Origin: a bacterium Ga0077546
GTDB taxonomy: Bacteria; Cyanobacteriota; Vampirovibrionia; Obscuribacterales; Obscuribacteraceae
Direction: 5' to 3'
Assembly (NCBI GenBank): GCA_001464165.1
Contig: LNEX01000345.1
Coordinates: forward strand, 1 to 11,378
DNA length: 11,378 bases
Shown: in pieces, positions 194-11,373 of the stretch
How the letters are laid out: each line of letters opens with the position of its first letter
How positions within the stretch are numbered: the first letter of the stretch is position 1
Position numbers and translations under genes: made by a program
The notes under the pieces: generated by a model
What the model saw: only the letters and a program-made list of their open reading frames with translations
Databases searched by the model: none
Told to the model about the DNA's origin: nothing

Positions 194-1594
194 ATGAAAG
201 GTTGGTATATTCCAACCCGCCCAGATCAACCAGGAGGCCAGAGCACGGCTTGGTTTGCCTCGTTCTGGCATTTTTGCGCCGACTACTTGAGAGACCGCTT
301 CGCAGAAGATTGGTGCCTTTCACCGGAAAACTCTTTGCTTTTGCACGTTGGAAATCGCGCAGTTCCCGCTCAACTGGTGGTGCGTTCTCCCAAGGCAAAA
401 AACAATACAACATCTCTTCCATACAGAACATCGATCTTAGATGCTCAACTCGCAATGCCACCCCAAGAACACACCCAACAAGTGGATGGACTCAATGTTT
501 ATTCACTGCCAGCGGCGTTAATGTTCTGCTCTCCAACATTCTTCAGACAAAACCCAACTGACGCCCGCGCAGCACTATCAGCCATCCCAAGCGCCTCAGA
601 CGTATTGAACATGCTGCTTGCAGGAGGGCACACCGTAGTTGCCGGACGTCTTGCTGGCGCGTTCAGAAACATAGGCCGGTCACGGATTGCAGATGACATT
701 GTGAACACAATGAAGGTTGCTGGATACGATTGCCGCGAAGAAGACCCGTTCGTAGCGCCAGCACCGATTATATTCTCGCGGACAGAGCGAAGCCCTTACG
801 TCAATCGCATCAAGCTAATGTGGGAGACAATACGGGACCCTGTGCTAGAGCGCTTTCCGACATCACCCAGTTTACCAAAAGATAAAAACGCTTACTTAAA
901 GCAGGTACAAGACAACTATGTCACAGACGCATACCACTCGCTGTCCATTGAAGGATACAGAGTTAGCCGCGAATTGATTGAGAAAGCCAGAAAGGGAAAT
1001 TGGAACCCAGACGCTGATGAGAAAGATCACGAGCTCAGAAATGCACTGGCAGCAAGAGGCTACTGGCAGTCATACCAGACTGTTCGCCAGAGCCTCGCCT
1101 TAGTACTTCGTGGCGCAAATCCTGGAGAAGTTGCAGATGATGATCATGGCAGATGGTATCGCGAGCTATTTGCTCCAAGCGTGACAGCCGGACTACTCAA
1201 ACCCTCTGACCTGGCAGGTTACAGAACTGATCAAGTATTCATACGCCATTCTAAGCATGTGCCACCAAGCAAGGACGCCGTCCGAGAATTGATGCCTGCA
1301 TTGTTCGAATTATTGCGCGAAGAAAAAGAGCCCGCTGTTCGTGCCGTGCTCGGACATTTTTTGTTCGTATACATTCATCCGTATATGGACGGCAACGGAC
1401 GCACCGGACGCTTCTTGATGAACGTGATGCTCGCTGCCGGTGGCTACCCATGGACGGTCATGCCGGTGGCCCGCCGAACTGAATACTTGAGCGCGCTGGA
1501 AGACGCGAGTGTCAATCAGAAAATTGTTCCCTTGGCTAACTTGCTTGCATTATTAGTTAGCGAAACAATGGCAGGAAAGCCAGAGGCTAAGTAA
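194..1594 (+). CDS. Fic-domain protein with long N-terminal domain (Fic1)
   Basis: This 466-residue protein is a probable Fic AMP-transferase (or another nucleotide/phosphate-moiety transferase), expected in the cytoplasm. The catalytic motif HPYMDGNGRTGR lies at residues 395-406, with catalytic His395 and the phosphate-binding GNGR loop. An inhibitory [S/T]xxxE[G/N] motif, SLSIEG, lies at 249-254 ahead of the Fic core, which marks a class II enzyme held off by its own helix, with Glu253 as the inhibitory residue. The first 200 or so residues (TRPDQPGGQS near the start, GGHTVVAGRLAGAFR around 150) form the extra domain seen in this long Fic type; they may sense or bind a target. The start is fixed: no other start codon exists in frame upstream before a TGA at 146-148. 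The SD GGGGAGG at 185-191 lies only 2 bases from the ATG, unusually close. The target is unknown. The family and intact active site are clear. Confidence 0.92.
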   Translation: MKGWYIPTRPDQPGGQSTAWFASFWHFCADYLRDRFAEDWCLSPENSLLLHVGNRAVPAQLVVRSPKAKNNTTSLPYRTSILDAQLAMPPQEHTQQVDGLNVYSLPAALMFCSPTFFRQNPTDARAALSAIPSASDVLNMLLAGGHTVVAGRLAGAFRNIGRSRIADDIVNTMKVAGYDCREEDPFVAPAPIIFSRTERSPYVNRIKLMWETIRDPVLERFPTSPSLPKDKNAYLKQVQDNYVTDAYHSLSIEGYRVSRELIEKARKGNWNPDADEKDHELRNALAARGYWQSYQTVRQSLALVLRGANPGEVADDDHGRWYRELFAPSVTAGLLKPSDLAGYRTDQVFIRHSKHVPPSKDAVRELMPALFELLREEKEPAVRAVLGHFLFVYIHPYMDGNGRTGRFLMNVMLAAGGYPWTVMPVARRTEYLSALEDASVNQKIVPLANLLALLVSETMAGKPEAK

Positions 1595-1687
1595 ATGGTT
1601 ATAGAGAAAGGGGCGTTGCCGGTCCGCAGGTTAAGCCAAAAGATTCAAAAAAGCAGCTGGCGCGGCATCTTGCTACAAAGAGAGATG

Positions 1688-1722
1688 AACGTGTCGAAAA
1701 AATCGTCTTTTTTCGACACGTT
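1688..1722. promoter_or_regulatory. Perfect 15-bp inverted repeat (TGTCGA sites 1 and 2)
   Basis: The arms aacgtgtcgaaaaaa (1688-1702) and ttttttcgacacgtt (1708-1722) match perfectly around the 5-base spacer tcgtc. Each arm carries a TGTCGA hexamer, at 1692-1697 forward and 1713-1718 reverse. The T run faces the loop rather than trailing the stem, so a DNA-binding site is more likely than a terminator. The site lies 79-113 bp upstream of fic2. Confidence 0.6.
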
Positions 1723-1725
1723 TCC

Positions 1726-1754
1726 TTGACCTGTCGATCCAATCGACATATCAT
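1726..1754 (+). promoter_or_regulatory. Sigma70-type promoter for fic2
   Basis: A -35 element TTGACC (1726-1731, 5 of 6 consensus) is followed after 17 bp by a -10 element TATCAT (1749-1754, 5 of 6). Transcription would start about 1761, some 40 bp ahead of the fic2 ATG. The spacer contains the inverted pair tgtcgat-cca-atcgaca, and the -10 straddles the left arm of the next inverted repeat. A protein bound at these sites should block RNA polymerase. Confidence 0.6.
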
Positions 1755-1767
1755 ATAAATATGTCGA
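1732..1767. promoter_or_regulatory. Operator-like TGTCGA sites 3-5 over the fic2 promoter
   Basis: Two overlapping inverted repeats share a middle site. The first is tgtcgat (1732-1738) / atcgaca (1742-1748) with a 3-base spacer. The second is tcgacatat (1743-1751) / atatgtcga (1759-1767) with a 7-base spacer. With the upstream palindrome this gives five TGTCGA hexamers in alternating orientation (+ - + - +). Their centres are 21, 19, 11 and 19 bp apart, close to whole helical turns. The likely binder is the C-terminal winged helix of Fic2 itself; that is inference. Confidence 0.6.
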
Positions 1768-1800
1768 AATTTGGGCTAATTTTAAACAGATAGGGATATT

Positions 1801-2880
1801 ATGGCTTTTGACCGCAATAAACCATTCAATCACTTGCCTGATTTACCTCCCAGCCAGGAGCTAGAAACCCATACTGTCTTAAAAAAATGCATAGCGGCCC
1901 GGGCTGCGCTTGCCGAACTCAAAGGCGCGGGAGGGCTTATTCCCAATCAGACTCTTCTGATTCGGTCGATCGGCCTGCAAGAAGCCAGATTGTCTTCCGA
2001 GATTGAAAACATCGTCACCACAACCGACGATCTCTATCAAGCAATGGCAGACTCAATCGACAAGGCCAATCCTGCTACAAAAGAGGTCTTGCGCTACCAG
2101 GAAGCGCTTGCTGCTGGCTACAAAACAATTATTCAACAGCCAATACTGACTACAAATCTGTTCTGTAGCATTGCTTCCCTCATAACGCAGCACGATATGA
2201 ACGTTCGCAAGATTCCGGGCACCAAAATTGTCGATGGCAACAGGAAGGCAATTTATACTCCGCCAGATGGTGAAGCGCTGATTCGCGACAAGTTAAAGAA
2301 CCTAGAACAATTCATCCATGACCATCAAGACTTAGACCCACTGGTGAAACTAGCAGTGATGCACTATCAGTTTGAGGCGATTCACCCATTCACCGATGGC
2401 AACGGCAGGACCGGAAGAATAATCAATATTCTCTATCTGGTACAACAGCAGCTGCTCTCAATGCCAGTGCTGTATCTTTCGCGCTACCTCATCGAACACA
2501 AAAATGAATACTACGCAGGGTTGCGTGGTGTCACCGAGAATTCGAACTGGGAGCAGTGGATAGCATTTTTTCTTGACGGTATCGAGCAAACAGCTCGTGA
2601 TACACGTGAAAAAATAGCTGAAATAAAATTGGCTATGGACGAAACTCAAGAGCTGATCAAAGAAAAATTGCCAAAGATCTATTCCAAAGATTTGGTTGAA
2701 ATTTTGTTCTACCACCCTTACTGCAAGATTCGATTTCTTGAAGACCGCGAGATTGCCCGCAGACAAACGGCTTCAAACTATCTGCGCTTACTTGAAGAAA
2801 TAGGTATTCTGCAGAGCGTGCGCTCTGGAAGAGAAACCTATTATATAAATCGACGCTTGCTTCGCATTCTTACTAGTTAG
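1801..2880 (+). CDS. Fic protein with N-terminal Fic_N and C-terminal winged helix (Fic2)
   Basis: This 359-residue protein has the layout and length of the Shewanella SoFic type. A Fic_N region carries the inhibitory motif SSEIEN at residues 65-70 (Ser65, Glu69, Asn70). The Fic core carries HPFTDGNGRTGR at 195-206 (catalytic His195). A C-terminal region from about 290 looks like a winged helix: the segment DREIARRQTASNYLRLLEE resembles a helix-turn-helix and is followed by a short beta wing with YYINRR. Family knowledge gives AMP transfer to a protein hydroxyl, with self-inhibition by Glu69. The start ATG 1801 follows a weak SD (agggat). The upstream promoter is embedded in a TGTCGA operator cluster, so the winged helix may repress its own gene. 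The gene is 206 bp downstream of Fic1 but has its own promoter, so it need not be co-transcribed. The target protein is unknown. Confidence 0.93.
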   Translation: MAFDRNKPFNHLPDLPPSQELETHTVLKKCIAARAALAELKGAGGLIPNQTLLIRSIGLQEARLSSEIENIVTTTDDLYQAMADSIDKANPATKEVLRYQEALAAGYKTIIQQPILTTNLFCSIASLITQHDMNVRKIPGTKIVDGNRKAIYTPPDGEALIRDKLKNLEQFIHDHQDLDPLVKLAVMHYQFEAIHPFTDGNGRTGRIINILYLVQQQLLSMPVLYLSRYLIEHKNEYYAGLRGVTENSNWEQWIAFFLDGIEQTARDTREKIAEIKLAMDETQELIKEKLPKIYSKDLVEILFYHPYCKIRFLEDREIARRQTASNYLRLLEEIGILQSVRSGRETYYINRRLLRILTS

Positions 2881-2896
2881 AATCTCGCAAAAGTTG

Positions 2897-2931
2897 CAAT
2901 TCAATTCAATTCAAATCAAATCAAATCATTT
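2897..2931 (+). repeat. Pentanucleotide tandem repeat, seven units
   Basis: After fic2 the bases run as three CAATT units, three CAAAT units and a final CATTT, all in a strict 5-bp register. The switch from one unit type to the other halfway suggests two rounds of slippage. It lies 140 bp upstream of the next gene and outside any coding frame. I see no good promoter beside it. Confidence 0.6.
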
Positions 2932-3070
2932 CGGCAAAGATTCAAGAAGAATTGGCAAAGTCGCATCCTCGCAAGACAACCCATCGCAATGCTGCTTCAT
3001 AAAGCCTTTTGGAATTTTGAATGTAATGATACGTTGTCTACTCTCCAACGAAAGTTTTGCGAGGTAGGCT

Positions 3071-4987
3071 ATGGCTGCGAATGAAACAATTAGCAGAGAG
3101 CAATTTGCCTCGTTGGTATTGAAGTTAATATCCGAGTACAGCGATGATCCGTGGCGGGCTGACTTGGAACAATTCTCGCTAAGTGCTGCCGGCGCAGGCG
3201 GGCCGAAGAACTTGTCACTGATAAGGTTCTATCAAGTCTACCTAGAGTCAAGCAGTCCAGATAATTTGCTAGCGTTGCAGCGGCAGATTAGATTGCTCAC
3301 TAACCCTGCCCCTCTGCCAACCAATAGAAATGATCTGTTAGCTCGCTTGTTGCCTTGCCTCCGCACGCTTTCCTCCTTTCAGACCAGCAACATCAAAGCC
3401 CGCGCTATGGCACCTCCAGATACTTCTTCTGGCGAGCTTGTCTTTTTTCCCTACGCCGATGTTCTGGCCGTTGGACTGGTCTTCGATAAGGGAGAAACTG
3501 TACAGCACGCAAGACATTTTGAACTTGAGCGCATCGGTCTTGACGCCGAAGCAGCAATAGACATTGCCGTTCAAAATCTCAAGCAATTGAGCCTTGATTC
3601 TATGCGCCCCGTCCAGTATGGGTTCTATACTTCACCCTGGAAAGATACCTACGACGGCTGCCGCCTGCTGCTCCCTGAGATTTTCTCAAAACTCTCAGTA
3701 CAGGGTGAAGTGGTTGCGCTCTCGGCCGCAGCAGACAACTTATTTGTGACTGGCTCAGAAGACATAATCGGCCTTGAGTTGATGACTACTCTGGGAGCAG
3801 CCTTGATGAAGTGTCCTTCCGGCCTCTCCGCACTGCCATTGGTGCTACGTGATGGCGCATGGGAATCATTTCAACTCGCCGTTGACCACCCCGCATTTGA
3901 TACCATAAATACCTATCGACAGAATGTCTTGAGGATGCTCTACAAAGAGCAAGAGGCCCTTCTGCAGCAATCTTCGCCAGCCGGTCGCAGCTCTAAGATC
4001 ACGCCTTTCGTCTTTGACCATGATAGAGAGAGAGGCTTTCTCTTCAGCAAAACAAGTGTTCTGGATGGTAGCGTCAACCTAATACCCGAAACCGACGTAG
4101 TAGAATTCTTCAAAAAGAACTGGCTGAGGCAGGAAGAGTGCGTGGCCAGAGCGTCCTTGGCCAGAGTGACTGAGATACTGGCGTCAAAGCTTACTAAAGA
4201 TCCGATTTTGCAGCCAGGTCGATGGTATCTAAATGAATTCCCTTCAGCAGCGGAACTTGCCGCACTCGGCAAGATGCCGCCAGAGCAATCGCCACTGGTA
4301 TCAGCGAAAACAAGTTTCGAAGAAACCGATTTGTCTGTTTTCGAAATTCTTGTGTCTCTTCCTATTCCGATGGGTGCCATACCTACCAGCTCTACGCTCG
4401 AAAAGCCGAACACACAAGTATGCGAGTTTATCTACTCGGGGTCGGTTAGCGAACTGCAAGAATTCTACCTATCTAATCTGCGGATTGGAGGCTTTAACCA
4501 GTTAGAGACTGAACAAGGTGCGTTCTTCGAAACTGGATTGTACGGAGCCGGATGCACGAGAGAGGTCACCTTCGGTCCAAGCAAGATACGCGGAGAATCT
4601 CTCTTGCGCCTTGTCAAGCGAGTCAGCTATGACACGCTAGCGACGCGCAATGCGCTAATTAAACAGAGCGAGAAATTGCGATCGCTAGAACAGTTTTTTG
4701 GTTTGTCTATACCAGAAGACACACGAATTAAGGGCGAATTTAGAACATCCGACAACAGTGGATCTCAGTATTTACTGTCTAACAATTCTCCCGATACACT
4801 TGTGCAATTCTTCCGAACGCAGATACTTGGTCCCTTTCCAATATACATGGGACCGGACAGCTCGGGCGGCCCTCATATTTTGATGGATACCGAATCGGGT
4901 ATTTCCGTCTTAGTCGCGGCCAAAACCACTGCCGAAGGCACTTTACTTACTCTGTCACGAGATTGGACACCCGGCAACAAGCCGTAG
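3071..4987 (+). CDS. DUF1444-like protein with duplicated C-terminal modules
   Basis: This is a 638-residue, apparently soluble protein; I see no signal peptide or membrane segment. Residues about 125-240 resemble DUF1444 (the Bacillus YtpQ family, unknown function): a strand-rich DVLAVGLVFDKG segment, then GLDAEAAIDIAVQNLKQLS, then CRLLLPEIF, then NLFVTGSED. YtpQ is only about 270 residues, so this protein is more than twice as long. The extra part contains two similar modules, about 431-520 and 547-630. Each runs as [L/S]IP, a variable strand, then S-x-x-x-L-x-x-F-[Y/F] and an aromatic/glycine turn, recalling small alpha-beta domains with the pattern 'S-x-E-x-V-x-x-F-Y'. The start ATG follows gagg at 3061-3064 with a 6-base spacer. 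It is 152 bp upstream of the glycosyltransferase gene. The function is unknown; the DUF1444 match was made by eye. Confidence 0.75.
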   Translation: MAANETISREQFASLVLKLISEYSDDPWRADLEQFSLSAAGAGGPKNLSLIRFYQVYLESSSPDNLLALQRQIRLLTNPAPLPTNRNDLLARLLPCLRTLSSFQTSNIKARAMAPPDTSSGELVFFPYADVLAVGLVFDKGETVQHARHFELERIGLDAEAAIDIAVQNLKQLSLDSMRPVQYGFYTSPWKDTYDGCRLLLPEIFSKLSVQGEVVALSAAADNLFVTGSEDIIGLELMTTLGAALMKCPSGLSALPLVLRDGAWESFQLAVDHPAFDTINTYRQNVLRMLYKEQEALLQQSSPAGRSSKITPFVFDHDRERGFLFSKTSVLDGSVNLIPETDVVEFFKKNWLRQEECVARASLARVTEILASKLTKDPILQPGRWYLNEFPSAAELAALGKMPPEQSPLVSAKTSFEETDLSVFEILVSLPIPMGAIPTSSTLEKPNTQVCEFIYSGSVSELQEFYLSNLRIGGFNQLETEQGAFFETGLYGAGCTREVTFGPSKIRGESLLRLVKRVSYDTLATRNALIKQSEKLRSLEQFFGLSIPEDTRIKGEFRTSDNSGSQYLLSNNSPDTLVQFFRTQILGPFPIYMGPDSSGGPHILMDTESGISVLVAAKTTAEGTLLTLSRDWTPGNKP

Positions 4988-5070
4988 CCATCAAAAGGAG
5001 CTGCAGAGTTTACTAGCACTCACCTATTAAAAAAACGGCCAATCTTTGCTCTGCTGTATCATAATCAAAA

Positions 5071-5115
5071 GTTGTGAGCGCTAATGGTTGCGAGCGCTAA
5101 AAGTTTTGCGCAAAA
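5071..5115. promoter_or_regulatory. Direct repeat plus palindrome upstream of the GT9 gene
   Basis: The 14-mer gttgtgagcgctaa (5071-5084) recurs as gttgcgagcgctaa (5087-5100), 13 of 14 identical and 16 bp apart. Each copy contains the palindromic hexamer AGCGCT. A perfect 12-bp palindrome, ttttgcgcaaaa, follows at 5104-5115, ending 24 bp before the start codon. A possible -10 element CATAAT lies at 5060-5065 but lacks a clear -35. The arrangement looks like a regulator-binding region; the binder is unknown. Confidence 0.4.
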
Positions 5116-5139
5116 AGAGTCTTAGACAAGGGAATTGAA

Positions 5140-6087
5140 GTGGCTTATTTTTTGGCACCAGTGGCAAATGGTCTGGGTGATCTAATTGTTTCTCTGCCTG
5201 CCTTGCAAGCGTTGATTAAGTCCGGCCAGCTAACTTACTTGATAACCCGCTCACCTTTTCAAGAAGGCTTAGAGGCGCGAATTGCGGGCTTGGCTGGGTC
5301 TATTCGCGAGGTCGATTTTGACACAGCCAAGCTCAAGGCCGATGACAACTATTTCAATCTTCGCAACCATCCACTGCAAACCGATCATATTTGGGCCTCA
5401 CCAGAGTTTGAGCGGCAATACCCAGGATACAAAATCAACCACGTATTGAAAGGTATCTGCGCAGACTTCGGTATTGCCGCCGACTACGATCAATTAACGC
5501 CGCTTCCATTCACTGCTCGCAGTGAAGCAAAAGACACGGTGCTTTTTATTCCTGGCTCTGCTGGCATAGTCAAATGTTGGCCAACCAAGCACTGGCTAGA
5601 CCTCGCCAAAGCTCTTCAATTGCGCGGGCAAAAAGTAGCAGTGCTGGGGCAACCGCAGCGCTCGGAGATTGTGCGAGATTGTTTGCAAGCGGGCTTAGAG
5701 CATATAGCAACGCCTAAAATCATTGATGCACTTGACGCGATTAGCTCCGCAAAATCTGTCGTAGCAGTAGATACAGGTCTTATGCATCTGGCCATTCATC
5801 AAAATATTCCCACTGTTTCTTTGTTTCGCTATAACACCATGTTTCAACGGGATTATCCCCATGTGCGCTCATTAGCAGCACCGCGGTGCCAGCAGAGCTG
5901 TATTGACCTAGAATTTTCAGCCGTTCCCAATAAGGTTATAGAATTTGATTCTGTTAAGGAAAACGAGAATCTCACCTACTGGGAAACCTGGAAGTGCACA
6001 GCCGAAAAATGGGAAGAGCGCTGCATGTGGGCCATCAGCGTAGAATCAGTTTTAAATGCGGTCAGTGAGTTAGGAAGCGTGAATTGA
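5140..6087 (+). CDS. Glycosyltransferase family 9 (heptosyltransferase-like)
   Basis: This 315-residue protein is of the ADP-heptose:LPS heptosyltransferase type (GT9, GT-B fold) and probably adds a sugar to an envelope glycan at the inner face of the membrane. Visible hallmarks are GLGDLIVSLPALQAL at 11-25 (N-terminal acceptor-side loop), the nucleotide-sugar region IPGSAGIVKCWPTKHWLDLA at 137-156, and DTGLMH at 211-216. A Cys-rich tail follows (Cys250, Cys254, Cys286, Cys295, with CMWAIS), as in many GT9 proteins. The start is GTG 5140, chosen because MAYFLAPVANGLGD begins directly at the first strand and an SD (aaggga) precedes it. The stop is 24 bp from the next gene's ATG, so the two are probably co-transcribed. 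The exact donor and acceptor cannot be told; a role in LPS core synthesis is inference. Confidence 0.85.
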   Translation: MAYFLAPVANGLGDLIVSLPALQALIKSGQLTYLITRSPFQEGLEARIAGLAGSIREVDFDTAKLKADDNYFNLRNHPLQTDHIWASPEFERQYPGYKINHVLKGICADFGIAADYDQLTPLPFTARSEAKDTVLFIPGSAGIVKCWPTKHWLDLAKALQLRGQKVAVLGQPQRSEIVRDCLQAGLEHIATPKIIDALDAISSAKSVVAVDTGLMHLAIHQNIPTVSLFRYNTMFQRDYPHVRSLAAPRCQQSCIDLEFSAVPNKVIEFDSVKENENLTYWETWKCTAEKWEERCMWAISVESVLNAVSELGSVN

Positions 6088-6111
6088 ATCTCAAAAATGG
6101 AGACCACCTAA

Positions 6112-7038
6112 ATGAGCCAGCTTGATCATATTTATGACGCCATTGTAGTTGGTGCCGGGCCGGCTGGCATAAGTTGTGCCCTTGAATGCATCGAGAATGC
6201 TTTAGACGTTATTGTTCTTGATCGCGCAGAGCGCATCGGCGGGCAACTGTCATCGATACCAGGGCCATTGCAAAATTTCTCAGCGGGCTTTTATGCCACT
6301 GGTGATGCCTTGCGCGACGAGATGGAAAAGGTTGCCAACCTCGCTTTGCCCCAGCGCATAGTGACCGGAATAAATGTCGAATCTTTCAAGTTATCAGAGC
6401 GTACACTTCAAACGAATCAAGGCACCCTGAAAGCACGCACCATCTTTTTGGCCACCGGCTATCGCGTGCGCGAATTAGATATTAGCCTAACTACTGGTTT
6501 TGAGAAAGACATTTACTACCATAGTGGTTCTTTCAAGAAAGAACTTGCGAATAAGAACTTGGTAGTGATCGGAGGAGGCGATAGTGCCATGTTTACAGCA
6601 CTAGATATGGCAGAAATTTGTCCAGATATCAAAGTACTTGTGCGTGGTACCACACTGAAGGCGCGTCCAGATGTTATGGCGAGAGTTGATGCACATCCTC
6701 GCATTACCGTCTTACTAAATACCAGTCTAAAGACATTGAAAGGTGCGCCGAATCTTCAATCAGTAGTTGTCGCAAATCCAGACGGCGAAACCGAATTACC
6801 TTGCCACGAGTTAATTGCCAAACTTGGCTATGCGCCAAACACAGAAGCATTTATAGACCAACTCAAAAGCGATGAACGAGGCCACGTAATCGTTGACCAG
6901 AGTTTTGCCACTTCTATTGAAGGCGTCTTTGCTGGCGGTGACATCGTGCAACCAGGCTACGACCGCATTGCCTTTGCCTCAGGCAGCGGAATGATGGCAG
7001 CTCGGTCTATGCGCAAATTAGTTGGTCACAATGTTTAA
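6112..7038 (+). CDS. Thioredoxin-reductase-like FAD/NAD(P) oxidoreductase lacking CxxC
   Basis: This 308-residue two-dinucleotide-binding-domain flavoprotein is of the thioredoxin reductase fold. It has an FAD-binding GAGPAG at 14-19, an ERIGGQL-like segment at 40-46, ATGYR at 114-118, an NAD(P)-binding GGGDSA at 154-159, and the C-terminal FAD motif GVFAGGDIV at 271-279. Where thioredoxin reductase carries its redox CxxC (around 135-140, just before the NADPH domain) this protein has YYHSGS, so it cannot reduce thioredoxin by the usual dithiol relay. Known relatives without CxxC are ferredoxin/flavodoxin-NADP reductases of this fold and YpdA-like reductases; I cannot choose between them. It has an SD (ggag 6099-6102) and lies 24 bp after the GT9 gene. 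Its last 226 bp occur again at 10456-10681, and its present 3' end may have been supplied by the inserted block. Confidence 0.88.
   Translation: MSQLDHIYDAIVVGAGPAGISCALECIENALDVIVLDRAERIGGQLSSIPGPLQNFSAGFYATGDALRDEMEKVANLALPQRIVTGINVESFKLSERTLQTNQGTLKARTIFLATGYRVRELDISLTTGFEKDIYYHSGSFKKELANKNLVVIGGGDSAMFTALDMAEICPDIKVLVRGTTLKARPDVMARVDAHPRITVLLNTSLKTLKGAPNLQSVVVANPDGETELPCHELIAKLGYAPNTEAFIDQLKSDERGHVIVDQSFATSIEGVFAGGDIVQPGYDRIAFASGSGMMAARSMRKLVGHNV
6813..7038 (+). repeat. Left copy of 226-bp direct repeat (flavoprotein 3' end)
   Basis: This copy is codons 235-308 plus the stop of the flavoprotein gene. It aligns without gaps to 10456-10681 at a constant offset of 3643. Positions 6813-6890 are identical (78 bp). 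From 6891 on there are 20 substitutions in 148 bp. Immediately 5' of 6813, and after the stop codon 3', the two copies share nothing. It could be the attL-like junction of an inserted segment. Confidence 0.85.
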
Positions 7039-7054
7039 AACATATCCAAACCTA

Positions 7055-7477
7055 TTAACGAATATGCAGCCGGTCAATTAAGATATTAAAGCTGATACCA
7101 AGGGCTAATATCATCACGCACATCAAAATTCGGCCAGCAAGTGGACCGTACTTTTTAGTAAGCTCGTATGAGCGCCAGTCGAAAACTGTAGGAAATAAGC
7201 ACATCAGCACCGCGCAAAACGCGCCACCGCCCCAGGCACCTGTGTGCATCAAATTACTAGTTTTCCAGACTACAACAAAGACGAGAGTCGCCAGCACGAC
7301 CCTTATAAATTCCTGGCGCTGAGAAAGAATAGGTTTGCCGGCAGCCGGTTTCTGATTGCCCAGGCTATGATTACCCAGACTATGATTACCCAGACTATGA
7401 TCTGTGTTGAGCTTATCCAGGTCTACAACAGGCTCAACCTGCACGGCCGCTTGGCCATTATGCTGTGAATTATTCAT
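7055..7477 (-). CDS. Small three-helix membrane protein with HSLGN repeat
   Basis: This 140-residue protein is unrecognised. The N-terminal 55 or so residues are polar and hold (HSLGN)x3 at about 28-42, encoded by three 15-bp repeats. Three hydrophobic stretches follow, roughly 58-72 (VVLATLVFVVVW), 81-97 (GAFCAVLMCLFPTVF) and 115-133 (ILMCVMILALGISFNIL), so it should sit in the membrane. A good SD (ggagtg, complement of 7485-7490) lies 7-9 bases before the ATG and supports the start. Its stop is 16 bp from the stop of the convergent flavoprotein gene, with no room for a separate terminator. No function is proposed. Confidence 0.7.
   Translation of the reverse strand: MNNSQHNGQAAVQVEPVVDLDKLNTDHSLGNHSLGNHSLGNQKPAAGKPILSQRQEFIRVVLATLVFVVVWKTSNLMHTGAWGGGAFCAVLMCLFPTVFDWRSYELTKKYGPLAGRILMCVMILALGISFNILIDRLHIR
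7353..7397 (-). repeat. 15-bp tandem repeat x3 inside a coding region
   Basis: The unit tgattacccagacta (plus-strand reading) fills 7368-7382 and 7383-7397 exactly. A copy with two changes fills 7353-7367. Read on the minus strand, the units give HSLGN three times in frame. Copy number can change in steps of five residues without shifting the frame, and the identical pair suggests recent slippage. Confidence 0.8.
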
Positions 7478-7536
7478 TGTGGATCACTCCAATTGCGTCG
7501 CCGCTTAGTAATAAATCGTGTTTTCCGATAGTAAAG

Positions 7537-7565
7537 GTTCTATTTAAGCCCATAGCTTGTGACAA
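7537..7565 (-). promoter_or_regulatory. Possible promoter for the membrane-protein gene
   Basis: On the minus strand, TTGTCA (complement of 7560-7565, 5 of 6) is followed after 17 bp by TAGAAC (complement of 7537-7542, 4 of 6). It lies about 60 bp upstream of the gene starting at 7477. The rest of the 7478-7737 gap shows no convincing gene. It holds a short CAG-rich run (7581-7599) and a weak terminator. Confidence 0.3.
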
Positions 7566-7650
7566 AACCATTACAGGAACCAGCTGCAGCAGCAGCAGGA
7601 ACGCTACCTCAACTTCTAACAAGCAATCTATCCATTCATCCTAATGCCGT

Positions 7651-7685
7651 AAAAAATGACTGTCTTGTCTAATCCAAACAAAGTC
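7651..7685 (-). terminator. Weak terminator after the 316-residue gene
   Basis: On the minus strand the pieces GACT-TTGT and ACAA-(gac)-AGTC pair around a 9-base loop with a 3-base bulge. They are followed after one base by six T residues (complement of 7651-7656). It begins about 50 bp after the stop of the gene ending at 7738. The stem is short and A+T rich, so the call is tentative. Confidence 0.3.
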
Positions 7686-7737
7686 AATGTCGTTCATGTG
7701 CCGAATTGAAAAGTGTGCCGTAGTTGTGCTGCGAAAT

Positions 7738-8688
7738 CTAGCGTCCAATGAGGTTCTTGAAGGCATCGTTGAACTGCTGATTTGGTCCAAAAACTTTTTG
7801 ACCAACTTGATCTCCGAGGCTGCCCGCTTCGCGCTTGATTGGATCGCGAGACCAGCCAAAAATAGCATTTTCGCCATGCACCTCAAAACCTAGACCGGCC
7901 GAAGAGGCTAAAATTCCGCCATAGAAGTGATATAGGGTACCGGCTGAATCAACTTTAGAGAGTTTATTTTTAGCTCCTTCATCGAATTTTTCGAGACGGT
8001 TAAAGACATTGTCTGATTGCTTCTTTGAGAAAGTATCGAAAGGATAACCCATGTCTGGGCGAGGAGAGTCTGTTACTGGAGCCTGTCCACGCTCAACTGA
8101 AGCGATGTTCTTGGTGAAATTAGCCAAGGTCAGAGTGGCTAAGTACTTGTCGTTGTTGCAAACGAACATAGCTCTTTCGACCAGAGTCTTCTGGCTAATA
8201 GCGCCCTGGTCAGCTTGGAGATCCTTCATCAGCTTTTGCTCATAGGGTCTCGTTACTTTGGCGCTATAGGCATCATCAAACATGGGTGGCTCATTGGTAT
8301 TTTTACCGAGATAGCCGCCGACAGTCAGATCTTTCAAGATCTCCAGGCCGTTGAGACCCTTTGTTCTGTTGGAAAAAGGTTCGTTAAAGGCATCGGAAAC
8401 TCCATCTCTAATTCTCACGAAATGTTGTCTGACGTTGGAGGGAAGGCCCTCGAACAGCCGAATATTCTCAGCAACTAAAATTGGTTTATCAATTGGTTTA
8501 TCATTTGATTTATCAAATTGCGGCGTTCCCACTATTTCGAGGTCACCAAATTGACTCTTGAGCAAAGCGTTTGCATTGCTGTTATCCCTAAGGGGGCGGT
8601 TTGAGGTCTGGAGCTCGGGAGCAACAAAACCACTAAAAGAAAGCGAAGAAGACTTTTCTAGCGCTTCAGATTGTTCCAATCTAGACAT
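7738..8688 (-). CDS. Unrecognised 316-residue protein
   Basis: I do not recognise this protein. The start at 8688 (MSRLEQSEALEK) is preferred over one 23 codons upstream because GAGGTG lies 6 bases before this ATG. The N-terminal 80 or so residues are low in complexity and Ser/Asn rich. They include DKSN-DKPI-DKPI, encoded by three 12-bp repeats at 8479-8514. From about 80 the sequence looks folded, mostly helical (NIRLFEGLPSNVRQHFVRIRDGV), with EILKDLTVGGYLG and a C-terminal part of YHFYGGILASSAGLGFEV and NAIFGWSRDP. There is no signal peptide or clear membrane helix; ILASSAGLGF is too short and flanked by charges. A loose tail may precede a conserved domain. It is followed by a weak terminator, and a 16-bp palindrome lies 76 bp upstream of the start. 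Confidence 0.65.
   Translation of the reverse strand: MSRLEQSEALEKSSSLSFSGFVAPELQTSNRPLRDNSNANALLKSQFGDLEIVGTPQFDKSNDKPIDKPILVAENIRLFEGLPSNVRQHFVRIRDGVSDAFNEPFSNRTKGLNGLEILKDLTVGGYLGKNTNEPPMFDDAYSAKVTRPYEQKLMKDLQADQGAISQKTLVERAMFVCNNDKYLATLTLANFTKNIASVERGQAPVTDSPRPDMGYPFDTFSKKQSDNVFNRLEKFDEGAKNKLSKVDSAGTLYHFYGGILASSAGLGFEVHGENAIFGWSRDPIKREAGSLGDQVGQKVFGPNQQFNDAFKNLIGR
8479..8514 (-). repeat. 12-bp tandem repeat x3 inside a coding region
   Basis: The unit aattggtttatc fills 8479-8490 and 8491-8502 exactly, and atttgatttatc fills 8503-8514. On the minus strand this gives DKSN, DKPI, DKPI in frame. It is a short minisatellite in the low-complexity N-terminal region of the unknown protein. Confidence 0.7.
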
Positions 8689-8763
8689 AAGACGCACCTC
8701 ACAGGGGGGATATTGGCGCTTGATTTTGCTTTTAGTAAGAGATACCGATCGCTGCAACCGCTA

Positions 8764-8779
8764 CAACCAAACTTGGTTG
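8764..8779. promoter_or_regulatory. 16-bp near-perfect palindrome
   Basis: The sequence caaccaa-ac-ttggttg has 7-bp perfect arms and a 2-base centre. It lies 76 bp upstream of the minus-strand start at 8688, where an operator could sit. I could not fix a promoter next to it. Confidence 0.35.
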
Positions 8780-8825
8780 AGCCAATATGAATTTATCGCA
8801 GACTCTGTGACAAATACATACCAAA

Positions 8826-8842
8826 GTCGCCTCTCCGGCGAC
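8826..8842 (-). terminator. GC hairpin, possible terminator of the MFS gene
   Basis: The arms gtcgcc and ggcgac pair perfectly around the 5-base loop tctcc. On the minus strand the stem is followed by TTTGG, a short T run only. It lies about 50 bp past the restored stop of the MFS pseudogene, which suits a degraded terminator. Confidence 0.3.
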
Positions 8843-8889
8843 AGCAATAGGTTAAACAGGCGGTGGCTGGCAATTGAATTGTCCGCAGC

Positions 8890-9569
8890 TCATGTCTCCA
8901 CAAAATCAATATCTTTTCCGAAGGTTTCTTCCATCAGAGCAATCGAGACGATCGCCCCGGCAAAACATAACCCCCAGTGATCATGGCGCTGTTAACTGGC
9001 CCGCAAATCGATGCGAGATAGCTGAAAAGAGCAGTGATTGGAATTGTTGAAGCTCTCACTAGGTTTGGAACAAGAGTCGTAGCCGTGGCTCTTAGATTTG
9101 TTCCGAACTGCTCTGCCGTAGACGTCACCACCACCGACCAGTAGCCTACAAAAAATCCAAGCGGCAAACACAATAGACCATAAACTTGCGGTGGACTGTT
9201 TAGCACAAGAGCTGCCGAAACAAGCGCGCCAGCAACAAAGACTAGCATCGCCAGTTTTCTGCTGCGCAAGAACTGGCTAAGTATGCCACTAAGCACTTCA
9301 CCAAGAGTTCCCCAGAGCAAACCGCCCACAATCATTCCAGCCATCTGCATGTTGAGCAGAAGCACACCGGCCGCCAATGAGTTTTGAGGAGCAACACCAA
9401 GACTTTCAAGACTGGGGATTCGCACCACAGCAAACAAGACAATGTCATAGACATCAACTAGAAAACCTAAGCCAGCAATGAGAAGGATGGGGATTATCTG
9501 CGCACTGGGAAGGTCTGCAGTTGCCAGTCTGGATTGGTTCTCCGGCTTGGGACCGATCTGCAAAGCCAT
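8890..9569 (-). pseudogene. MFS transporter with internal deletion and frameshift
   Basis: This is a major facilitator superfamily transporter remnant. The start at 9569 has an SD (gaggtg). Residues 25-90 hold helices 1-2 (GLGFLVDVYDIVLF, then GGLLWGTLG). The sequence then jumps at about residue 90 directly into what looks like the second half: VLSGILSQFLRSRK, then a helix, then GYWSVVVTSTAEQFGTNLRAT. About 200 residues (helices 3-7) are missing with the frame intact, so the open frame is 211 codons against about 400 or more in the family. Near the end a second lesion occurs. After GGYV the frame reads LPGRSSRLL and stops, but a shift at the A run 8962-8965 restores GAIVSIALMEETFGKDIDFVET and a stop at 8890-8892, a normal MFS tail. 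One T missing on the minus strand explains this. Two independent lesions argue for a true pseudogene. Confidence 0.75.
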
Positions 9570-9672
9570 ACAACACCTCAGTTAGTTTCTACATGAGTTT
9601 GACCCGAGTACTCACATATAGGCACAATGACCACACAGTAATCAGCAACAGGCGGCTCCTAAGTCACTACAA

Positions 9673-10332
9673 TCAACGCTGCTTACTTTTCTCTTTGTTA
9701 TCTTTTAAAAACAATTCGTAGGCTGTGGGCGCAATAGCTGCTGCTACCACGGCACCGATTGCAAGCTCAGCTAATGCTACTTTAGGATTAAACGCACTTC
9801 CCCTAACTAAACATTTATACGCTTCCATAGCACCCTTAATTGCAGTCCATTCAGCCATAGCAAGCAACTGAGCATCTGTGCTCTTTCGTATTAATAACAT
9901 TTGCCCCTCTGGTATCACTTCTTTGTCTGTGATTGTTGCTACTTGCTTCCTGCTATTATCCTTTGAGTGAGAGTCAATAAACTCAACTTTAGTCTCGTTG
10001 CCGGTGGTGGTCAGAACTAGTTCAGGTGCAAACTTTAGGTTCTGAACTTGCTTAAGTTCCTCGACAAATTTTTTAGCTTCAGCTGGCGGCATTGTCGTGA
10101 TTTTTTCTCTTAAGTCCATAGCACAAGAATAAGCCGGCTGACCTTCCATTGCCTCAGCAAACTTTGTTACTTCAGGATTTGCTTGTCCTTGAGGAGCAGA
10201 CGGTTTAATCGATTCATTTTTCAAGATAGATACAAGGTCTAAGTTGTGCCCATTCTGATCAGGTGAATCTAGGCCGCTCGACGATCTATAACCCGTTGAC
10301 AGTTCAAATAAATTACGTTCTGCTCCAGCCAT
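9673..10332 (-). CDS. Unrecognised protein with C-terminal membrane anchor
   Basis: This protein is not recognised. The start at 10332 (MAGAERNLFELS) is preferred because TTGAGGAA precedes it at about 8 bases. The frame stays open to an ATG at 10428, and that 32-residue extension contains the repeated phrase RQAKL twice, so a longer form is possible. The 219-residue form has a Ser/Asn-rich N-terminus, then LREKITTMPPAEAKKFVEELKQV, a strand-rich middle (LVLTTTGNETKVEFIDS, then KQVATITDKEVI), and helices to about 180. A hydrophobic segment, AELAIGAVVAAAIAPTAYELFL, follows at about 184-207, and the protein ends in a Lys-rich tail, KDNKEKSKQR. That layout suits a tail-anchored membrane protein with most of its mass in the cytoplasm. 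It is followed within about 100 bp by the MFS pseudogene on the same strand. Confidence 0.65.
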   Translation of the reverse strand: MAGAERNLFELSTGYRSSSGLDSPDQNGHNLDLVSILKNESIKPSAPQGQANPEVTKFAEAMEGQPAYSCAMDLREKITTMPPAEAKKFVEELKQVQNLKFAPELVLTTTGNETKVEFIDSHSKDNSRKQVATITDKEVIPEGQMLLIRKSTDAQLLAMAEWTAIKGAMEAYKCLVRGSAFNPKVALAELAIGAVVAAAIAPTAYELFLKDNKEKSKQR

Positions 10333-10455
10333 CGTGTTGTTCCTCAACTTTGCTTGTCTAATCTGCCCTAGCTTCGCCTGTCTAGTGTTACCAAATAGCT
10401 GTGACAATTCCATACCAACCAAGACCACTAGACCGACCTACTTAACTACTTAAGC

Positions 10456-10681
10456 AATTGCCAAACTTGGCTATGCGCCAAACACAGAAGCATTTATAGA
10501 CCAACTCAAAAGCGATGAACGAGGCCACGTAATAGTTGACCAGAGTTTTGCCACTTCCATTGACGGTGTCTTCGCCGGTGGTGACATAGTGCAGCCAGGC
10601 TACGACCGCATTGCCTTTGCATCAGGCAGCGGCATGATGGCAGCTAAGTCTATGTTTAAGTTGATTGGTCACAATGTTTGA
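10456..10681 (+). pseudogene. Displaced 3' end of the flavoprotein gene (right direct-repeat copy)
   Basis: This copy encodes the last 74 residues of a thioredoxin-reductase-like flavoprotein, with no start codon and an in-frame TAA at 10451-10453 just ahead. It is 206 of 226 bases identical to 6813-7038, with no gaps. Most differences are silent third-base changes. The residue changes are few: Glu to Asp, Arg to Lys, Arg to Phe and Val to Ile. The stop is TGA here and TAA in the full gene, at the same codon. That silent-change pattern means both ends evolved under selection as functional gene ends before this one was cut off. It lies 170 bp before folE and probably marks the original neighbour of folE. 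Confidence 0.85.
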
Positions 10682-10851
10682 GGGTTCACCGTGCGTTCAC
10701 GAGAACCATTGTAATTTAAATGAGTAAACTGACACGATGGGTGAACTATGGAAGCAACAATACATCTTCTACCACTAGCATCGAAATTGCAGTCAGAGAA
10801 GACTGCTGCTACTAAATTCTAGACGTCGAGAAAATTTCTCGAGCCATAACC
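10682..10851. other. Gap before folE with conflicting short frames
   Basis: Two short open frames occur. One begins at ATG 10720, is in the folE frame and stops at TAA 10813-10815 (31 codons). The other begins at ATG 10748, preceded by gatgggtga, is in another frame and stops at TAG 10820-10822 (24 codons). The second ends in SEKTAATKF and would join the folE frame if one base were lacking near 10819. I see no strong promoter, riboswitch or hairpin here. Confidence 0.4.
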
Positions 10852-11373
10852 ATGATATTAGAGGCTATTGGTGAAGATACTGCCCGACCTGGTGTTAAGG
10901 AGACACCCGCCCGTGTGGCGCGCATGTACCAGGAGCTCTGTTATGGTATCGGCGTCGACGCAGCATCCGAGATAACCTGCAAGTTCAACGAAGGCACCGA
11001 GGGTCTTGTCGTCGTTAAAGATATTGCTTTCACAAGTCTTTGCGAACACCACTTAATACCATTCAGCGGAGTCGCTCACATTGCTTACCTGCCTGCAAAC
11101 GGCACCGTCACAGGACTTTCTAAACTAGCGAGAGTTGTTGAACTAACTGCTCGCAGGCTGCAAGTGCAAGAGCGTATGACTGAAGAAATTGCTGACGCAG
11201 TTTTAGCCGGCATCGAGCCGAAGGCTGTCTGCGTCATGCTCGAAGCCGAGCACATGTGTATGTCTATGCGCGGCATAAAGAAGGCTGGGTCACGAACTTT
11301 GACCACGGCTTTCCGCGGGCAGTTTGAACTCGACAAAGAATTGCGTAGTGAAGTGTTATCGCTACTGAAGTAA
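10852..11373 (+). CDS. folE: GTP cyclohydrolase I (FolE), 5' end uncertain
   Basis: GTP cyclohydrolase I converts GTP to 7,8-dihydroneopterin triphosphate, the first step of folate (and other pterin) synthesis, as a cytoplasmic homodecamer. Counting from ATG 10852, the zinc ligands are Cys64, His67 and Cys136 and the catalytic histidines are His66 (CEHH) and His134 (HMC). GLSKLARVVE and RLQVQERMTEEI form the substrate and oligomer region, and GEDTARPGVKETPARVARMY is the usual N-terminal signature. The 173 residues are short for the family (about 180-220). Family-like sequence continues upstream (VEKISRAIT just before this Met), while the frame is open only back to a TAA at 10813-10815 with no ATG, GTG or TTG start. 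So either this ATG, which has no good SD, is used, or a frameshift near 10815-10822 hides the real start at ATG 10748. The catalytic core is complete to the last codon. Confidence 0.9.
   Translation: MILEAIGEDTARPGVKETPARVARMYQELCYGIGVDAASEITCKFNEGTEGLVVVKDIAFTSLCEHHLIPFSGVAHIAYLPANGTVTGLSKLARVVELTARRLQVQERMTEEIADAVLAGIEPKAVCVMLEAEHMCMSMRGIKKAGSRTLTTAFRGQFELDKELRSEVLSLLK

Follow-up and report, generated by a model that had tools for sequence, protein, structure and literature searches.

How does a gene come to have a second copy of its own 3' end, placed beyond a block of other reading frames? The question is raised by a gene for a thioredoxin-reductase-like flavoprotein in bacterium Ga0077546 (Obscuribacteraceae), contained in the 11,378 bp of contig LNEX01000345.1, forward strand, that were analysed here (the window). 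A glycosyltransferase family 9 (GT9) gene, the flavoprotein gene and folE follow one another on the plus strand, and a block at 7039-10455, termed here the cargo, stands between the flavoprotein gene and folE, its usual neighbour. The last 226 bp of the flavoprotein gene (6813-7038) are repeated gap-free at 10456-10681, with an offset of 3643. Our tentative answer is recombination of the RecA type between diverged alleles, which may have brought in a foreign gene end together with the cargo, with one illegitimate join, at a strain-variable locus.

The two copies of the gene end consist of two parts of different character. Bases 1 to 78 of the repeat, the core, are identical at 78 of 78 positions, whereas bases 79 to 226, the tails A (copy 1) and B (copy 2), show 20 differences in 148 bp. 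Twelve of these are silent, seven fall in four changed codons (E/D, R/K, R/F and V/I) and one lies in the stop codon, TAA versus TGA; a repeat search of the window reported 224 nt at 92%. The sequences that flank the repeat, left of 6813 and 10456 and right of the stop codons, show no relation to each other. The facts given in the original prediction held when the copies were compared, as did its statement that the block is accompanied by a different gene end. In 200,000 simulations that scattered 20 differences randomly over the 226 bp, at least 78 identical bases in a row arose in 0.27%; of the 14 differences at third positions, the core contains none (hypergeometric P 0.0014). A chance repeat was rejected on these two tests. 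The non-random spread of the differences implies either that core and tail have different histories or that the length of the core was set by the assembler.

The layout without the block was looked for in relatives. Among 194 genomes around G002, 20 had a flavoprotein match at E up to 1e-60, and 13 loci from 12 of these 20 genomes were compared (L001, L002 and L108-L118); the other eight genomes, with matches of 36-42%, fell outside the comparison, and L003 and L004 (37%, with neither GT9 nor folE beside them) were excluded from the 13. The named close relatives of the flavoprotein are mostly Candidatus Melainabacteria or Obscuribacterales records. In nine of the 13 loci (L001, L002, L111-L114 and L116-L118) folE lies on the same strand 225-281 bp after the flavoprotein gene, and in seven of these nine GT9 stands ahead of it, no GT9 match being found in L117 and L118. 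At L115, where GT9 is present, the contig stops just past the flavoprotein gene. The three loci in which folE is not next are the closest by identity: L108 (91%), L109 (90%) and L110 (87%, a partial gene). Since folE directly follows the flavoprotein gene in nine of 13 loci, flavoprotein-folE, as a rule preceded by GT9, is on this comparison the ancestral, empty layout. For the same reason the block at 7039-10455 separates the gene from its neighbour, and 10456-10681 is a second 3' end left before folE. An empty site had been predicted, and relatives show it, with the gap given above. In L002 the flavoprotein gene (9145-10070) is split into two frames of 149 and 157 aa, which may reflect a frameshift or an assembly error.

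The closest genomes carry other genes at the same gene end. After the flavoprotein stop codon each of them has a different convergent gene, of 118 aa in L108, 496 aa in L109 and 332 aa in L110, assigned by Pfam to Glyoxalase, DNA photolyase and Band 7, respectively. The next gene is common to all three; it encodes 619 aa in L110 (DUF4388, GGDEF), its start is also seen in L108 and L109, and a similar stretch lies just ahead of it in each locus. Three different cargoes after the same stop codon, with the same next gene on the right, therefore mark a spot that exchanges cargo. By this evidence the flavoprotein gene end is a place of genome-to-genome cargo variation, in these three without duplication of the gene end: a search with the flavoprotein end, at E up to 0.001, found a single match in each of the genomes G043, G048, G050 and G002. 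No recombinase family was found by Pfam in five open reading frames (ORFs) scanned in the L108, L109 and L110 stretches. The local folE was not found in G043, G048 and G050, the only match being a 58% relative elsewhere in each genome. That relative may have made the local folE dispensable. Upstream of the GT9-flavoprotein pair, L109 carries at 641-4350 an AbiEi/AbiEii pair and a helix-turn-helix plus IrrE-like peptidase gene, so the left flank of the GT9-flavoprotein pair is variable too.

The cargo of the window comprises four minus-strand ORFs of 140, 339, 211 and 251 aa in 3.4 kb (Table 1). No recombinase, transposase or phage family was found in these four with Pfam, NCBIfam and PHROGs, and no Pfam family in eight further cargo ORFs of 64-140 aa, which were scanned with Pfam only. 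No toxin-immunity family was found in the cargo either, the major facilitator superfamily (MFS) transporter being its only family match. This transporter, the 211-aa ORF, shows a large internal deletion relative to a 418-aa frame in L132 (G013); long open frames related to it also occur in L131 and L133, the genomes concerned being G013, G016 and G029. The 339-aa protein has a nearly identical relative of 316 aa in a Melainabacteria metagenome-assembled genome (MAG; tag Q8T09_13980), and in the same MAG the 251-aa protein has a relative at 53% (tag Q8T09_13950). A relative of that protein at 52% lies on a contig of length 256,760, and P0003, a flavoprotein of 90% identity, also lies on a contig of length 256,760. 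Relatives of two cargo proteins are thus found on ordinary Melainabacteria MAG contigs. In the genome searches the 339-aa ORF matched three of 194 genomes (36-38% identity over parts), and the same three in a search of 53 genomes of the order; the 251-aa ORF matched none of 60, a search that had no positive control and therefore shows little. The G+C content of the cargo, 0.43-0.49, is not distinctive. To judge from its genes, the cargo looks like partly decayed material of chromosomal type and not like a working element. On the other side of the block folE is damaged, its native reading start being lost while the core is still open.

Several other origins and targets were considered. No tRNA or Rfam-family target was found. 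A phage element was rejected, as the cargo gave no PHROGs match and no viral-contig relative of its 339-aa protein was found; viral contigs yielded three distant flavoprotein relatives only (27-43%) and no exact match to the join pattern. In a plasmid collection 88 records matched, all below 60% identity.

Table 1. Features of the flavoprotein locus in the window
Feature	Position	Strand	Basis
GT9 gene, left neighbour of the flavoprotein gene	5140..6087	+	Pfam PF01075; adjoins the flavoprotein gene in 10/13 related loci
Flavoprotein gene, thioredoxin-reductase-like, 308 aa, complete, with tail A	6112..7038	+	Pfam PF07992 (Pyr_redox_2); 91% / 90% identity to G043 / G048
Core copy 1, 78 bp, identical to 10456-10533	6813..6890	+	Pairwise comparison of the copies
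Tail A, coding end of the complete flavoprotein gene, stop TAA	6891..7038	+	Differs from tail B at 20 sites
Cargo ORF, 140 aa, convergent with the flavoprotein gene, no family	7055..7477	-	ORF and family scans
Cargo ORF, 339 aa, no family; near-identical 316-aa relative in a Melainabacteria MAG	7738..8757	-	ORF, family scans, relatives
Cargo MFS transporter gene, decayed: large internal deletion, altered C-terminus	8934..9569	-	Family scan and comparison with relatives
Cargo ORF, 251 aa, no family; a Melainabacteria MAG protein among its relatives	9673..10428	-	ORF, family scans, relatives
Core copy 2, start of the displaced gene end, cargo joined on the left	10456..10533	+	Pairwise comparison of the copies
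Tail B, the coding end that was displaced; its stop, TGA, is shared with L108, L109, L110 and L002	10534..10681	+	Comparison with copy 1 and relatives
Conserved folE-upstream element (GGTTCACCG..GTTCAC)	10682..10701	+	Alignment with L002, L001 and L113
Damaged folE 5' end: 24 codons, then a stop and a 37-bp gap versus L002	10748..10851	+	Alignment with L002
folE core, 173-aa open frame from an internal ATG	10852..11373	+	Pfam PF01227; 90% to L002 folE

The tails differ from each other by 13.5%, which is near the distances of the gene body to L108, L109 and L110 (12.4%, 13.7% and 15.2%). The two tails are therefore alleles of two lineages, with a divergence like that between species of this clade. 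Immediately after tail B comes GGGTTCACCGTGCGTTCAC, an element found before folE in L002, L001 and, less closely, L113; because this element directly follows tail B, tail B and folE probably belong together. The hexamer GGGTTC that stands directly after the stop codon in L108 is perhaps a trace of a lost folE. Two flavoproteins of 308 aa, P0001 and P0002, are identical outside residues 300, 303 and 304, and the 14 residues that distinguish the window protein from P0001 leave positions 129-269 without a single difference (longest-run P 0.002). The tail differences of the first pair and the clustering in the second comparison together point to a gene that is a mosaic among strains, its tail varying on its own.

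The repeat, the empty site in relatives, the different cargo in the closest genomes and the damage to folE and to the MFS gene are observed; they can be joined in a reconstruction whose direction, timing, old tail, RecA route and circular intermediate are inferred. An ancestral unit GT9-flavoprotein(tail B)-folE would have met DNA of a related lineage in which convergent cargo stood behind a flavoprotein end, tail A. Homologous exchange of the RecA type would have occurred inside the identical 78-bp stretch, and the other end of the incoming DNA would have been attached, with no homology involved, where that stretch begins. The simplest route may be that the incoming fragment, its gene piece shortened by trimming, had closed into a circle and recombined once: one crossover in the core, between a chromosome of the order body-core-B-folE and a circle of the order core-A-cargo, would give body-core-A-cargo-core-B-folE. 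A recombinase could have produced such a circle, or the incoming DNA could have been trimmed and its ends rejoined. The flavoprotein would have been kept intact, with its last 49 codons replaced by another version, and the old end and folE, the latter now damaged, would have been moved 3.6 kb downstream. A single crossover is expected to leave a partial duplication of the homologous segment flanking the insert and an identical crossover stretch, and both are present. Homology-facilitated illegitimate recombination with linear DNA is expected to give an insertion together with a deletion in the recipient, whereas here the gene end is present twice and folE has been retained (see, for comparison, the relevant passages of PMC3240628).

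Several observations weigh against recombination between diverged alleles as just described. The three closest loci have no second gene end, the longest exact downstream repeat of the gene-end region being 12 bp in L108 and 13 bp in L110, with none of at least 11 bp in L109 (the contigs are short, 7.9, 7.9 and 10.6 kb), and no other contig with both the cargo and a second gene end was found, so that the window alone shows this combination. The evidence on which tail belongs to the gene body is divided. On DNA, tail B is 12.2% and 12.8% distant from L108 and L109, which fits the body, and tail A 16.9% from both, a difference in fit that is not significant (Fisher P 0.14 and 0.30); over the last 49 residues, P0001 (95% overall) has two differences to A and four to B, and P0002 (95%) three to each. 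The DNA thus leans slightly to B, the P0001 protein to A, and P0002 to neither. Tail B alone has F at a column where R is invariant in 14 aligned proteins, a change that suggests decay, yet the adjoining core is without any difference. Finally, the 78 bp of identity are near the k-mer size of an assembler.

This last point leads to the main rival, an assembly chimera, which we regard as somewhat unlikely. A strain with flavoprotein(tail A)-cargo that had lost folE, as in G043, G048 and G050, and a coexisting strain with flavoprotein(tail B)-folE would have been joined through a shared stretch of about one k-mer. Common assembler settings include k of 77-79, close to the length of the core, and other cargo without a local folE is the very state of the three closest genomes. 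The start of the window offers a parallel: its first 79 bp match a gene of L108 and then diverge, as would a contig that starts one k-mer before a branch of the assembly graph. They lie inside a gene homologous to the L108 AAA ATPase gene (L108 6675-6602, 96% over 74 bp; the AAA ATPase label comes from a Pfam family scan), the homology ending at 79/80, and this fragment hints at strain variation in the sample and at a k near 77-79. However, a shared core explains the switch of tails and not the join of cargo and core at 10455/10456, for which separate reads or a chimeric read would be required; there is no N at that join, nor anywhere in the window, and the lesion in folE is left unexplained. 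The same assembly graph would also fit an intact empty site accompanied by a free 3.6-kb circle.

Two further features of the left part of the window were seen. An imperfect 24-bp tandem repeat at 80-127 directly follows the ATPase fragment. The region of the second Fic gene (1681-2885) is 96% identical to L108, and the GT9-flavoprotein region (5029-7036) only 86%; by this comparison they would be adjacent segments with different histories.

A small element that carried an attP-like gene end and has since lost its integrase could have integrated site-specifically, but we judge this unlikely. The remnant could resemble e14 of Escherichia coli or a cis-mobilizable element (CIME). The block lies exactly at the coding end, its replacement end keeps the gene intact, and the 226-bp repeat stands at both of its borders. 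In this it resembles e14 in icd of E. coli K-12, where the 3' end of a metabolic gene likewise received a replacement coding end and the old end was left behind as icdC; that 165-bp end shows 12 differences, with Glu/Asp exchanges, in the relevant part of PMC11148124 and was also measured here. A replacement end with an identical core and a diverged rest, and an empty site, are thus found here as in an e14-type insertion, whereas a recombinase in the element and a gene-end repeat at other insertions of the same gene end are not. Moreover, e14 carries intE, xisE and phage genes, while the block of the window, with no recombinase found, has a chromosomal-type cargo of 3.4 kb and 78 bp of identity. 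In our own alignment of MG1655 the identity at the annotated e14 border is 11 bp, and no identical run in the gene end exceeds 29 bp; e14 is a single and thin yardstick for core size, and sites of the tRNA type can have longer cores, such as the 47 bp given for DLP12 at argU in the passage concerned of PMC6379469. The only site-like feature seen was an imperfect palindrome of 11 nt across the join of cargo and core copy 2 (10444-10459), with no inverted repeat of at least 7 nt within 40 nt around copy 1. CIMEs likewise hold cargo between two repeats at a gene 3' end without recombination genes, and such elements are described as frequent in Streptococcus salivarius in the relevant section of PMC7563491. 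They derive from integrative and conjugative or integrative and mobilizable elements, however, and no such element was recognised in the window: the repeat is present, but no signature of these elements was found in the cargo families or in five ORFs of the relatives, which represent few strains. What stands of the original prediction is the empty site, the different gene end that came with the block and a layout like that of e14; an integrase-type element fares poorly in view of the decayed cargo, the relatives without a second end and the 78-bp core. As no recombinase was found and the identical stretch is far longer than in e14, recombination of the RecA type suits the locus better.

Of the other alternatives named in the original prediction, an assembly join and gene conversion keep some probability and tandem duplication is disfavoured; if a single genome had duplicated its gene end locally and gene conversion had later acted on nothing but the 78-bp core, a close direct repeat on one strand would be accounted for, but this is very improbable, since 12 of the 20 differences are silent and the distance between the tails is that of species in this clade, which argues that both evolved as separate coding ends, and tail B, the folE-upstream element and folE match the ancestral layout.

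Recombination between diverged alleles has counterparts among known systems. In a study of homology-facilitated illegitimate recombination, DNA entered E. coli by conjugation, and the 14 products sequenced had part of the lacZ end duplicated over 109-950 bp; the passages cited of PMC3240628 account for this by one crossover with a circle from which part of the fragment was missing. The likeness lies in a partial gene-end duplication beside foreign DNA; a laboratory plasmid was used there, whereas the window holds natural DNA and ends of diverged alleles. Type VI secretion system (T6SS) effector and Rhs loci are alike in that a conserved stretch is the entry point for a new gene end with cargo, which leaves the old end further downstream; the relevant part of PMC5361080 offers end displacement as a model for T6SS effector arrays and cites it for Rhs loci. 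Those loci carry toxin-immunity modules, whereas the new end of the flavoprotein is nearly the same protein, with no such family in the cargo. Among the matches listed, the word Obscuribacterales was absent from the literature on Obscuribacterales islands. The most fitting view of the locus is that of a recombination product of a known kind; it looks like a variant of recombination accidents already described and not like a new kind of mobile element.

A wider reading, which we consider doubtful, is that in Melainabacteria of the Obscuribacterales type the 3' end of the GT9-linked flavoprotein gene serves as a standing anchor for integrase-free cassette exchange, in which recombination in the last quarter of the gene would swap tail and cargo and occasionally leave the old tail and folE as a fossil. 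If so, the tail difference between P0001 and P0002 and the three cargoes of the closest genomes would be traces of such exchange. Were the arrangement instead an assembly join, it would be an example of strain variants imitating an integrated element. The case, if real, also cautions that an integrase is not proved merely by a repeat that accompanies a replaced gene end. If recombination between diverged alleles is the true explanation, the window would offer a snapshot of the loss of an operon neighbour, in which cargo enters, the old end and folE are displaced and folE is damaged, the sister genomes having lost folE.

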